Source: Eimeria necatrix (taxonomy: Eukaryota > Apicomplexa > Conoidasida > Eucoccidiorida > Eimeriidae). From it: 64,000 bases of DNA. A model generated the notes under the pieces. That model was not told the origin of the DNA, did no database searches, and was given only the letters and a program-made list of their open reading frames with translations. Shown in pieces: positions 3,001 through 62,944 of the stretch. Numbering within the stretch: the first letter of the stretch is position 1; each line of letters starts with the position of its first letter. The translations under genes were made by a program, and so were the position numbers. The stretch is taken from positions 100,880-164,879 of the forward strand of contig NW_013654191.1 of assembly GCF_000499385.1 (NCBI RefSeq), written 5' to 3'.

Positions 3001-4387
3001 TACAGCCATATCAAAGACCTCCGTTGACCCCAAGAAGTTAGGGGATAGAGATAGCGGGCGTGTTGACTATGCTGATGCGGGACGGAACTTGGTGGGCACC
3101 TTAGCGGACCCTCAAAAGGCATCAGACGAATTTCATGGGTCGCGATCTTGTCAAGCTGGTAAACCTGCTGCGATGAATGGCTGCTGCTCAGCTCATCCAC
3201 AAGACAACCAACAGCAGCATCAGCCGCAGATAAATCAACAGTTGCAGCTGATGGTAAAGAAAACCTTCGTCACCGTGTCTAACGCAGGAGACGGCCTTCT
3301 GGATAGACCGATGGGTGTGGAGCCCCACGAGAGTCGCCCCACGGCAGAACTCTGTAAACCGTGCTGTACAGAGGATAACTGTGGAAGTTGCCAGTGGGGC
3401 TCCTCAAACACCAATGGAAGCCATTTCACACCTGTGAAGAATGATATTTGGGAGAAAGAGAGTTCTCGTCGAAGTTCCGAGGATTCAGGTTGTCGGAGCC
3501 CCTGTCGGAGCCCCTCTGCAGATGATATGGAGCACCATAATACACGAAAGCGATGTCCTCAAACTGAGGCCTCCCAGTTTTGTGCAGACCAGCAGTGTCT
3601 TCCCGAGGGCCAAAATTTTGGCTGGACGAAAGGGGCAAATGCCAGTGCCGGGGATTCTCAATGCAGGGGTAGTCCATCCTCCTCGGAGGGCTCCCGCACG
3701 CTGCGCATGCAGGTTTCACGGAAGATACGTGCTCATCGCTACCTTGTCCCTGGACCGCAGAGCTTGGTGAGAAACACCACACGAGCACTAAAGAAGTCTA
3801 CTGAGGGCATGATAAGGCCTTTAGCGCCTCCTTGCATCTATGAAGAAGACGGGCCCCCTCAAGAGCCCTCCAATACAGCCAGGGACCTGGAAGCAGCGAA
3901 GGCGCAGCTTCCAAGGGGCTTGGGGGGAGGCAGCGTCAGTAAAACAAACGAAAGAGATGACTACTATCGCGATTTCAAAGAGCTGCACTGCGCTTCCAGG
4001 AAGGGCTCTGTGCAGTCACCCACGGACTTCCACCGAAGGGGCTCAACGCGGAGGCATCCCGTTGGTGATCTCGGGGCTGCGAGAATAGCTGATGGCGCAA
4101 CCGGTTCGGACAATACTTACGAACGGTCTCTGCAGGTCCGCAGCACCAGCAATACCAGCACGAGCACCAGCAGTAGTAGTAGCAGCGGCATTCGCAGCAG
4201 CAGGAGCTGCAGCAACAATAGTAGTGGTAAGAGTCGGAGTGTGCTGCCCCTTCTTTCTGTGCAGTTTCGCTTGTCTGAGATAATGGCCTTGCCGTTCCTC
4301 AATAAAGTTGCTTCGGCTTTGGGTGCTCGCGACTGGCTGAGGGCAAAAGTACAAAGCAGCCCCAGGAATCCTCCGGAGCAGCTCTAA
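1..4387 (+). CDS. CAMK-like protein kinase, 3' part, with very long low-complexity tail
   Basis: The 5' end lies outside the window. Exons: ..1-185, 798-1515, 1946-4387 (TAA). Junctions are GTAAG/CTTCAG (phase 2) and GTAAGA/TTTCCAG (phase 0). Exon 1 encodes the kinase segment GAAPEIL, then [18 protein letters not shown] (subdomain IX, Asp conserved) and GFPPFRGQN (X). Exon 2 completes subdomain XI with SAKDLI and ALTHPWF, including its Arg, which places it in the calcium/calmodulin-dependent kinase group. After the kinase fold come about 190 residues rich in Ala, Gln and His, then 813 residues in exon 3 with runs of Ala, Gln/Glu, Ser and Asn. No EF hand is visible, so it is not an ordinary CDPK as far as can be seen. 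The T-P of the usual activation-loop end (GTPxYxAPE) is absent here. Junction 1 is certain from homology; junction 2 rests on open frame and phase. The gene might instead stop at 1578. Confidence 0.75.
2215..2262 (+). repeat. CAG/GAG-type trinucleotide run
   Basis: An imperfect CAG, then AAGCAGGAGCAG run inside exon 3 of the kinase gene encodes a Gln/Glu tract. Similar GCA runs at about 2105-2200 and 2520-2575 encode Ala tracts. Such homopolymer-coding runs are typical of Eimeria-like coccidian genes. Confidence 0.8.
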
Positions 4388-59576: not shown

Positions 59577-61355
59577 ATGGCTCACGGCGCCAGCAGATAT
59601 AAGAAGTCTAGGGCGAAGATGAGGTGGAAAGTGCGTTCCCCACGACGGCAGGGCTCTCTTGCACTGCAGCCACCCTACTTTATGTTTTGATGCCTTCTGT
59701 TCGTGTACCTTTTTCCCTGTTGTACGATTCTTGAGTTCTGCCTACGTTTTTGGTACGTTTCTTTTGTGCCTTCAATGTTCACCTGCGGAACAAGCTGTGG
59801 AGTGCCCGCTCGCCGCTCTGCGCACATTTCGTCAGGGCATGAACCTCTTCAGTGAAGGTGGGAAATGCTACCTTTGGGTGTTTGCGAGGCTTCATATGTA
59901 ACTTCTTATCATTCTGGCCATCTTTGGATTCCCTGGCACCTGGTGGTGGATCCGAGATGGCCGTGAACAGGGGTCGGCTGCTACAGAAACCTGGACACGG
60001 ACGTGTTCACATTCCCAGTTGGCTGGCTATGCGATGCGTCGTGGGCGGACAACAACGCCTGTCTTCTTTCTTAGTGTTCGGAGGCTCATTCTAATTTCAT
60101 TGAGCTTTTGGGTTTCTTGTATTCCGTGTTCACTGCGCTTTCTTGGAGGAAGTGTGGCTGTGGCTGCCCGGTGTAGCCGCTTCACATTCGCAGTATCGCA
60201 GAGTCCGTGATTCAAGCGAATGTGATGAAGGCGAGTTGGCTTACCCAACTGCTCGGGAGCTTTCCACCGCCCGTTCTGCTTTTCATGTTCAACTTTTTTG
60301 TGTGTGGGGCTTTTTCGCTTTGTAGACAAATGACTTGTGGGTCTTCCGTGCCTCTTTTTGTGCTTTTGCTCTGTAGAAGTTTCAGAGGCTTGCTCTGATG
60401 ACAGCAAGGATAGCCGTTTCACATTCGCAGTGTGTTGCGTACGCGATGCCTCAAGCGCCTGGGGCAACGCCTGACGACTTCCTTAGATGTCTGAAAGTCT
60501 GTCGAATACTGTTATATATTTCTTTTGATTATTTCTTCTTTTGGTTATTTTTTTGGGAGGGCTTGTTTTGATGACAGCAAAGGATAGCCGTTTCACATTC
60601 GCAGTGTGTTGCGTACGCGATGCCTCAAGCGCCTGGGGCAACGCCTGGCGACCTCCTTAGATGTCTGAGAAGTCTCCCAAATTGTGTTATATTGTAATTT
60701 ATCTTTGTGTTATATTGTAATTTATCTTTATTTACGGGCTTATTCTGATGACAACAAGGACAGCCGTTTCACATTCGCAGTGTGTCGCGTACGCGTTGCC
60801 TCAAGCGCCTGGGGCAACGCCTGACGACCTCCTTAGATGTCTGAAAAGTCTGTAAATTGTATTATATTTCCATTTATTATTTTCTTTGACGGGCTTGCTC
60901 TGATGACAACAAGGATAGCCGTTTCACATTCGCAGTGTGTTGCGTACGCGATGCCTCAAGCGCCTGGGGCAACGCCTGGCGACCTCCTTAGATGTCTGAA
61001 GAGTCTGTCAAGTTCCCTACTTTCCTCTTTCATTTCTTTTGGTGCTTGGTTTATGAGATGCCTATGATGATGTACTAAGGGTAGCTGCTATACTTCTCGG
61101 TGTGGTGGGGGTCCCATGGAAAATGACAAATTTTATTTTGTTGCAGGTTTATTCCACGGCACTTCTGGCGTTTCTGTGCAGCAGATCCCTTTAAAGCTCT
61201 AAAGCTTGCTCAGTTTCGCTGAGCAGCGCCACGTTTTTAAAACAATGGGACATCTGTTGCTCCTGTTCCTTGCGTGTTTTCCTTCGCAGTGGAAGAAGAA
61301 GCGCACCAGGAGATTGCAGCGCAAGAGAAGAAAGATGAGACAAAGGTCAAGGTGA
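59577..61355 (+). CDS. RPL41: 60S ribosomal protein L41 (eL41), two exons
   Basis: Exons 59577-59630 and 61290-61355 (TGA), phase 0, 39 residues. Exon 1 starts AAAATGG and encodes MAHGASRYKK...MRWK; donor AAA|GTGCGT. Exon 2 follows CCTTCGCAG and encodes WKKKRTRRLQRKRRKMRQRS plus a final Arg. The exon 2 part is the almost invariant 25-residue eL41 core; the 14-residue N-terminal addition is the form I recall from Plasmodium and other apicomplexans. L41 is the smallest ribosomal protein, nearly all Arg and Lys, and bridges the two subunits. The gene is easily missed because neither exon makes a long open frame. Its 1,659-base intron carries four U14 snoRNA units. Confidence 0.93.
60391..60499 (+). 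ncRNA. U14: U14 box C/D snoRNA, copy 1
   Basis: C box TGATGA at 60396-60401 and D box CTGA at 60491-60494, 99 nt apart end to end. Between them are the two U14 hallmarks: domain A, ACATTCGCAG, complementary to CTGCGAATG near the 5' end of 18S rRNA, and domain B, CCTTAGATGT, directly before the D box and complementary to ACATCTAAGG in 18S rRNA. By the D+5 rule domain B would guide ribose methylation of the C in ACAUC. AGGCTT before the C box can pair with AAGTCT after the D box. It lies in sense orientation in the L41 intron. Confidence 0.85.
60564..60673 (+). ncRNA. U14: U14 box C/D snoRNA, copy 2
   Basis: C box TGATGA at 60569-60574, D box CTGA at 60665-60668 (100 nt). Domain A (ACATTCGCAG) and domain B (CCTTAGATGT) are unchanged from copy 1. 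It has one extra A after the C box (CAGCAAAGG) and GGCGAC instead of GACGAC in the middle. Confidence 0.85.
60741..60849 (+). ncRNA. U14: U14 box C/D snoRNA, copy 3
   Basis: C box TGATGA at 60746-60751, D box CTGA at 60841-60844 (99 nt). Both 18S-complementary domains are kept. A few substitutions (ACAACAAGGAC, TGTGTCGCG, GCGTTGCC) fall outside the boxes and guides. A duplicated TTATATTGTAATTTATCTTT block lies between copies 2 and 3. Confidence 0.85.
60896..61004 (+). ncRNA. U14: U14 box C/D snoRNA, copy 4
   Basis: C box TGATGA at 60901-60906, D box CTGA at 60996-60999 (99 nt). Domains A and B are intact. The flanks GGGCTTGCTC and AGAGTCTG resemble those of copy 1. The copy ends 285 bases before the L41 exon 2 acceptor. 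Confidence 0.85.
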
Positions 61356-61972: not shown

Positions 61973-62944
61973 CTAAAGTGAACTAACGTGAATTGCTGGC
62001 AGGCAGGAGTAGCAGCGGTGACCTTGACTTACCCTGGAGGTAAATCGTAAAGAGAATTGAAAGACTCGGGCCTGGATATCGGGTGGCTTTCCACCACGGG
62101 GGCAAAGGCGTCGTGGCTGAGCCTTGGAACTAAGGGGTTGCGCTGCTGTGGGCGGCCTGAGGGAAGCGCAGCAGTGCAGGACACAGAGCCACTGATCCAC
62201 AATATTTCGAGAACTACTGCAGCAGTATTTCATATTTTCACAATATTTCAGAAATATTGCAACAATTGCGCCTTTTCTGAGGAGTTTCTGCAGGAATTGG
62301 CGCAGTGAAAGCCCTGAAGACGCACCGTGGTGCTGCTGCCTCGCGAAGGTGGCGCTGCCCTGTCGCAGTTGAGTGCGGGAGCTGAGGGCGTAGTGCGCAA
62401 TGATGGCCACAACTATTAACACTAAAACAACTGCGCTGCCCACGAAAATAACTATAACAGTGTTTGGCATGGGGGGTTCTTGCAGAAAAGAGAAAAGATG
62501 CCATTTGCTGTTGCGCGCCCGCGAAGCGCCAGCCTTCGAGTCCACAGACGGCGCGCTGCTGCGGCTGCTGCTGCTGCTGCGGCTGCTGCTGCTGCTGTGC
62601 AGTCTTTGGGTTTGTTGCTGCGGCTGCGGAGTTGAGGTCTTAGTTGAATTCAGAACAGTGGGCGCTTCCAAGTCCCGGGACTTGGGAAAATTCGCACTCC
62701 GCAGGCTCTGCTGCGGCGAGCCTCCCGCCTCTGGAGGCGCCTCATGAGGCAGTTTTGTCCCATGAGGCATTTGTGCAGCTGCAGCTGCCGGCTGAAGCGC
62801 CGCTGGAGCATCTGTGGGGAATTTCTCAGAAGTCCAGCTGAGGCGTGAGATGCTCGCAAGGCGGTGGGGCGCTGCACTGGGGAAGGCAACAGAAGAGGAC
62901 TGAGTTAGTGCAGAGCCTAGCCATGCCAGTGCAATTAACAGCAT
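61973..62944 (-). CDS. Secreted/type I single-pass membrane protein, low complexity
   Basis: One open frame of 323 residues from ATG 62944 to a stop at 61973. It begins with a signal peptide (MLLIALAWLGSALTQ). Residues 20-155 are Ala/Pro/Gln-rich with a long Ser/Arg run coded by imperfect CAG/AGC repeats. A single membrane segment lies at about 161-187 (NTVIVIFVGSAVVLVLIVVA and on), then a tail with LSLRQFLQKLLRKGAIVAIF. The part after about residue 235 is Cys-rich without pattern and could be intron read-through, so the true 3' end is uncertain. I do not recognise the family; the layout suits a surface or vacuolar-membrane protein. Confidence 0.55.
   Translation of the reverse strand: MLLIALAWLGSALTQSSSVAFPSAAPHRLASISRLSWTSEKFPTDAPAALQPAAAAAQMPHGTKLPHEAPPEAGGSPQQSLRSANFPKSRDLEAPTVLNSTKTSTPQPQQQTQRLHSSSSSRSSSSSRSSAPSVDSKAGASRARNSKWHLFSFLQEPPMPNTVIVIFVGSAVVLVLIVVAIIAHYALSSRTQLRQGSATFARQQHHGASSGLSLRQFLQKLLRKGAIVAIFLKYCENMKYCCSSSRNIVDQWLCVLHCCASLRPPTAAQPLSSKAQPRRLCPRGGKPPDIQARVFQFSLRFTSRVSQGHRCYSCLPAIHVSSL

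Follow-up and report, generated by a model that had tools for sequence, protein, structure and literature searches.

What do the four closely similar segments in the intron of the gene for ribosomal protein eL41 (L41/eS32) encode, and is each of them likely to be in use? U14 is a widespread small RNA needed for making the small ribosomal subunit, which acts in 18S pre-rRNA cleavage and guides 2′-O-methylation. A sequence-only reading of the 64,000-nt stretch of DNA analysed here (the window) had assigned the segments to four tandem U14 snoRNA genes placed in an intron of L41. Joining the two exons across a GT...AG junction (GTGCGT donor, TTCGCAG acceptor) restores the 39-aa eL41 frame, and the predicted spliced product matches the Pfam family Ribosomal_L41 (E 7.4e-8) and is identical at 38 of 39 positions to the eL41 chains of the solved structures 3j79 and 5xxu, which we take to be Plasmodium and Toxoplasma structures. 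One copy of eL41 was found; a search of the own genome (E up to 1) returned just these two exons. The U14 array and eL41 lie on the same strand (+) with the snoRNAs inside the intron, as expected for intronic box C/D snoRNAs. The restored frame, the Pfam match, the 38/39 identity, and the common strand bear out the location in the L41 intron, and the range proposed for the array, 60386-61012, was also correct, the relics described below falling outside it (Table 1).

Table 1. Features of the eL41 locus and of the dispersed duplicate of its U14 array (window positions unless a contig is given)
Feature	Position	Strand	Details
eL41 (L41/eS32) coding exon 1	59577..59630	+	MAHGASRYKKSRAKMRWK, begins with ATG
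eL41 intron	59631..61289	+	1659 nt, GTGCGT...TTCGCAG; host of the array; splicing predicted
Decayed U14 relic 1	59988-60082	+	single change in domain A; damage in domain B and box D
Truncated U14 relic 2	60174-60224	+	domain A intact; without C box, B, and D; repeat family D2
Copy 1 external stem, inner part	60386-60391 / 60495-60500	+	6 contiguous pairs
U14 copy 1	60396-60494	+	C 60396-60401, A 60422-60431, B 60481-60490, D 60491-60494
Copy 2 external stem	about 60552-60564 / 60670-60681	+	12 pairs, one bulge
U14 copy 2	60569-60668	+	A 60596-60605, B+D 60655-60668
Copy 3 external stem	60730-60741 / 60846-60857	+	12 pairs
U14 copy 3	60746-60844	+	A 60772-60781, B+D 60831-60844
Copy 4 external stem	60885-60896 / 61001-61012	+	12 pairs
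U14 copy 4	60901-60999	+	A 60927-60936, B+D 60986-60999
Possible relic 3	61065-61118	+	C box and 5′ half
eL41 coding exon 2	61290..61355	+	WKKKRTRRLQRKRRKMRQRSR-stop
Decayed partial duplicate of the U14 array	L007 (C464:3000-10254), about 3840-4253	-	dispersed

The strict pattern TGATGA-(10-40)-CATTCGCAGT-(30-80)-CCTTAGATGTCTGA has four matches on the + strand of the 64-kb window and none on the - strand. When the 44,016,600-base assembly was searched with the two guides (CATTCGCAGT, 40-70 nt, CCTTAGATGTCTGA), all four matches lay in the array and the reversed-pattern control gave none. Every copy starts with box C (UGAUGA) and ends with box D (CUGA), the base 5′ of UGAUGA being C or T versus R in the consensus, and the proposed order of box C, U14 domain A, domain B, and box D, including the spacing to box D, holds in 4/4 copies, which are repeated at a spacing of 155-176 nt. 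Nine of the ten pairs of the hairpin between domains A and B are invariant across the copies, while the tenth forms in copy 3 only. In a local Rfam scan of the 2-kb locus (E cut-off 10), SNORD14 (RF00016) was the top model for each copy (30.0, 28.0, 23.7, and 23.3 bits; E 0.0015 to 0.098). All these scores are under the SNORD14 gathering cut-off of 64 bits, which is a detection threshold and no functional feature, and no Rfam model reaches its cut-off at the locus; the Rfam check ranks U14 first, but below the threshold. The whole-window scan (E up to 3) returned five rows, three for SNORD14 (copies 3, 4, and 1, the last at E 2.5; copy 2 was absent) and two for isrG, and at this limit there was no SNORD14 match in the 64-kb window outside the array. 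The isrG matches (2096-2258, - strand, and 62537-62614, + strand) are weak and overlap GCA/GCT repeats; they were taken as an effect of composition. An RF00016 family search of the own genome gave 0 matches, but carries no information, as the same search in 14 control genomes also gave 0. SNORD49 also matched copy 1 (16 bits, E 1) and was rejected as weaker than SNORD14 (23.7 bits). With the C-A-B-D pattern occurring four times in the window and SNORD14 as the best model in every case, the DNA sequence confirms four U14 (SNORD14) box C/D snoRNA genes in the eL41 intron, and the array is real and most likely functional.

The fit of the guides to the target was examined with substitute sequences. 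The organism's own 18S was not found in the 44-Mb assembly by three pattern searches, and two conserved 18S words were absent from the whole assembly at up to one mismatch, hence the assembly seems to omit the rDNA; published 18S letters served as substitutes. Domain A (CATTCGCAGT) equals the Rfam consensus over CAUUCGCAGU, and its complement occurs in a yeast 18S primer in the available part of PMC4640389, while no domain A target was present in printed apicomplexan 18S among the matches listed. Domain B carries an A where the Rfam consensus has G (CCUUAGAUGU in the window versus CCUUGGAUGU). In the available excerpts, ACATCTAAGGAAGG or its complement is printed in a Babesia 18S primer (PMC5702202), a Plasmodium 18S primer (PMC3577666), and the 18S sequences of PMC8052970, whereas the 18S primer used for HSV-1-infected, presumably mammalian, cells reads ACATCCAAGG (PMC13011426); these apicomplexan sequences thus have U where the mammalian-cell primer has C. 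The A of domain B matches this U, and the pairing is thereby restored. With the 18S of PMC8052970, as far as it is available, standing in for the own 18S, domain B forms 11-13 contiguous base pairs and is complementary, next to box D, to ACAUC(C/U)AAGG, which upholds the suggested pairing with 18S for this domain. The predicted energy is −18.9 to −22.4 kcal/mol for the U form of the target and −14.3 to −17.8 kcal/mol for the C form, the single U-to-C change costing a predicted 4.6 kcal/mol. The C of ACAUC lies opposite the fifth base before box D. We take this C to be the known U14 methylation site, and the predicted methylated C is presumably the equivalent of human C462 and yeast C414. As to the stand-in itself, the rat and pig 18S sequences in the available part of PMC8052970, labelled Cryptosporidium parvum, carry TACCCAATGAAAACAGTTT, the site of the primer CYCF1E, which is given as an 18S primer for members of Eimeriidae in an excerpt of PMC7142967; because they carry this site, these sequences look eimeriid and may be so despite their label.

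The sequence-only reading had also stated that the guides stay fixed while the spacers drift, and took this as a sign of selection on the RNA. The RNA bodies are 94-98% identical in all six pairwise comparisons. Identity among the three true spacers is 60-64% if gaps are counted and 81-85% over ungapped columns, compared with a mean of 51% for shuffled spacers (200 shuffles); the 65 nt 3′ of copy 4 align to the spacers at 49-61%. On the aligned letters, the spacers have drifted further than the bodies and are still recognisably related. The bodies vary at six substitution columns and one 1-nt indel (about 99 columns), and none of the six falls within the 30 columns that make up boxes C and D and domains A and B, an outcome that, by our own arithmetic, is expected by chance about 11% of the time. 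The contrast is therefore between the RNA and the spacer, not between the guides and the rest of the RNA. The first part of the statement stands insofar as no guide letter has changed and the spacers are more diverged, but the whole body is conserved at 94-98%, and guide conservation is not separable from it; guide-specific conservation, which is not significant within the body, was accordingly dropped as proof of selection. The spacer between copies 2 and 3 also contains a perfect 23-nt tandem duplication (60682-60729).

Complementary flanks of 6-12 bp lie just outside the RNA in all four copies, the weakest being those of copy 1. When the letters of the flanks were shuffled, the observed energy was reached in 88, 6, 1, and 1 of 2000 cases for copies 1 to 4, respectively, and the native matching of 5′ and 3′ flanks gave the best total of the 24 pairings (−55.3 vs. 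−52.6 for the next). Two stem pairs have changes on both sides among the four copies; shuffles reached the observed covariation score in 49/500, the double changes in 64/500, and the percentage paired in 35/500 cases. When the partners were slid by 1-3 columns, 31-56% were paired instead of 91.6%; this control favours structure by construction. The covariation of the stems is accordingly modest, suggestive rather than a proof. In copies 1-3, one pair of the aligned four-pair terminal stem of Rfam is non-standard, and copy 4 fits all four pairs only where the alignment shifts box C; by eye, the pairing immediately beside the boxes is short or interrupted.

Further U14-like segments were detected around and outside the array. 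Relic 1 was found by cmsearch (22.5 bits, E 4.7e-6 at 60005-60084) and relic 2 by model R1 (15.4 bits, E 7.5e-4 at 60171-60225), a model built from the four array copies that detects both; neither score was reached by any of 1000 two-base-block shuffles. Relic 2 was also considered as a fifth working copy and rejected, being without C, B, and D. At 60180-60230 a near-inverted repeat interrupted by a 3-nt bulge (CTTCACATTCGC ... GCGAATGTGATGAAG) and foreign to U14 can be made out in it by eye; an ungapped repeat search gave no inverted repeat there. Relic 3 begins 164 nt after the start of copy 4, inside the range of the array spacing, and this position argues for a U14 remnant, which is nevertheless doubtful: its score was reached by 11/1000 shuffles, several other places in the window score higher, and model R1 gives no match there. 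Two DNA searches, one with copy 1 and its flank at an E limit of 0.001 and one with copy 4 at a limit of 10, each returned six places, namely the four array copies and two on contig C464. This contig carries two near-full copies, one truncated copy, and one 3′ end. Of the near-full copies, one carries two domain-A changes and one domain-B change; in the other, 9 nt are inserted and there is a change beside box D. No eL41 exon was found on C464 in the own-genome search (E up to 1). Rfam gave no SNORD14 row for these decayed copies at E up to 10, and SNORD49 matched them at 11.8 bits (E 7.5). Intact copies were thus 4/4 in the main array and none among the other copies found, and array copies probably come and go by duplication and decay. 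Other duplicated stretches are also seen by eye on C464, for example within 6900-6400 of L007.

We hold it to be very probable that the eL41 intron hosts four functional U14 genes, which are released by processing and guide 18S maturation. They would be transcribed with the eL41 pre-mRNA, and the complementary flanks outside the mature RNA may help to join boxes C and D for assembly of the C/D snoRNP. After splicing and debranching, the intron would be cut in its AU-rich spacers, and trimming would leave RNAs of approximately 100 nt; trimming from outside alone would not free the two inner copies, which suggests a cut between units. Domain A of the mature U14 would pair with the 5′ region of 18S and support early pre-rRNA cleavage, while domain B beside box D would pair with ACAUCUAAGG of 18S and guide 2′-O-methylation of the fifth-position C; the U14 reading predicts ACATCTAAGG and ACTGCGAATG in this organism's 18S. 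The array may change by duplication and decay, with selection keeping four intact copies. An extended form of this explanation, in which the one-intron array is the only intact U14 source of the genome, its dosage is tied to eL41, it is renewed by birth and death, each unit is freed via its own external stem, and the inner copies need an endonuclease acting between units, has in our estimate about an even chance of being right.

It may be, although we consider it rather unlikely, that only one or two copies make stable RNA, the rest being duplicates which unequal crossing-over or gene conversion has kept similar, without selection on each of them. The small number of differences between the bodies, which gene conversion could also explain, agrees with this, and so do the guides, whose conservation does not significantly exceed that of the other body columns, the spacers, more alike than shuffled ones, the relics, which show that copies come and go, and the weak flank pairing of copy 1. 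On the other hand, the spacers have diverged far more than the bodies, and all four copies retain every box and guide letter, which the other copies found do not.

For four working genes it also matters whether an intact U14 could lie elsewhere, unassembled or too diverged to be detected, with the array consisting of pseudogenes or fossils. The rDNA was not found in the assembly and other regions may be missing too, and the second locus, that of C464, is a sign that copies move; nevertheless, DNA search detected no further full-length copies except the guide-damaged ones of C464, whereas the array copies are exact in all boxes, which makes this very improbable. Chance resemblance of a different C/D snoRNA to U14 is hardly credible. 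It could be argued from the sub-threshold Rfam scores, from the SNORD49 match on copy 1, and from the C464 copies, for which Rfam lists SNORD49 and no SNORD14 row at E up to 10, but SNORD14 outscores SNORD49 on copy 1 and is the sole model listed on copies 2-4, the two guide elements of U14 and the spacing to box D agree, and the changed base of domain B fits the apicomplexan 18S.

The reading of the array as four U14 genes adds a U14 locus of a coccidian-like parasite that is missed by the standard Rfam cut-off and shows a matched change of snoRNA and 18S. The natural series of intact, damaged, and dead copies can serve the study of snoRNA gene turnover, and the array is also useful for the processing of introns with several snoRNAs. 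If the extended form is true, a single-intron array ties U14 dosage to eL41 and the inner copies need an endonuclease between units. No U14 array in an L41 intron turned up among the papers listed from the open-licence literature, and the available parts of PMC2784804, PMC3542256, and PMC12309372 hold no such case; the array pattern had 0 matches in viral and GTDB genome contigs, a scope without eukaryotes, as expected for a eukaryotic gene and with no bearing on relatives. The earlier claim that the four-copy array in an L41 intron is undescribed holds in this literature, but U14, intronic U14, and clusters are known kinds. U14 itself is ordinary, and the tandem packaging with decayed copies alongside is unusual. 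What is new, as far as it can be read from the letters, is the match of the domain-B A with the 18S U, the complementary flanks of each copy, whose role as external stems is inferred, and the relics with the decayed duplicate on C464.

The copies share with U14/SNORD14 (RF00016) the C box, domain A (CATTCGCAGT), the A-B hairpin, and domain B directly before D, and differ from it in the domain-B A for the consensus G and in scores of 23-30 bits against 64. Vertebrate intronic U14 genes are hosted by HSC70 and RPS13, as far as is known with one U14 per intron. The present array resembles these in its intronic position, a housekeeping host, and several copies per gene, but has all four in the single eL41 intron. 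In Plasmodium falciparum, the snoRNA pair PFS15/PFS16 shares one S27a intron (PMC2656528), thus several snoRNAs in one ribosomal-protein intron of an apicomplexan are known, although as two paralogous snoRNAs and not as four U14 copies; the available part of the same paper describes most malaria snoRNAs as single-copy and contains "U14" once, in a reference title. Cluster 1 of Ostreococcus tauri, as given in an excerpt of PMC7671301, is a four-snoRNA array that includes the U14 homolog Ot-CDsno13 and has flanking inverted repeats; there, too, U14 belongs to a polycistronic array whose inverted repeats flank boxes C and D, but the four snoRNAs are distinct. Plant intronic snoRNA clusters are a known kind to which the present array can be likened. 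Darzacq and Kiss reportedly described, in 2000, intron-encoded box C/D snoRNAs with an external stem, where the pairing is likewise just outside the mature RNA; in the eL41 intron it is repeated in each unit of a tandem array, and Rfam in addition aligns part of a terminal stem in the array copies.
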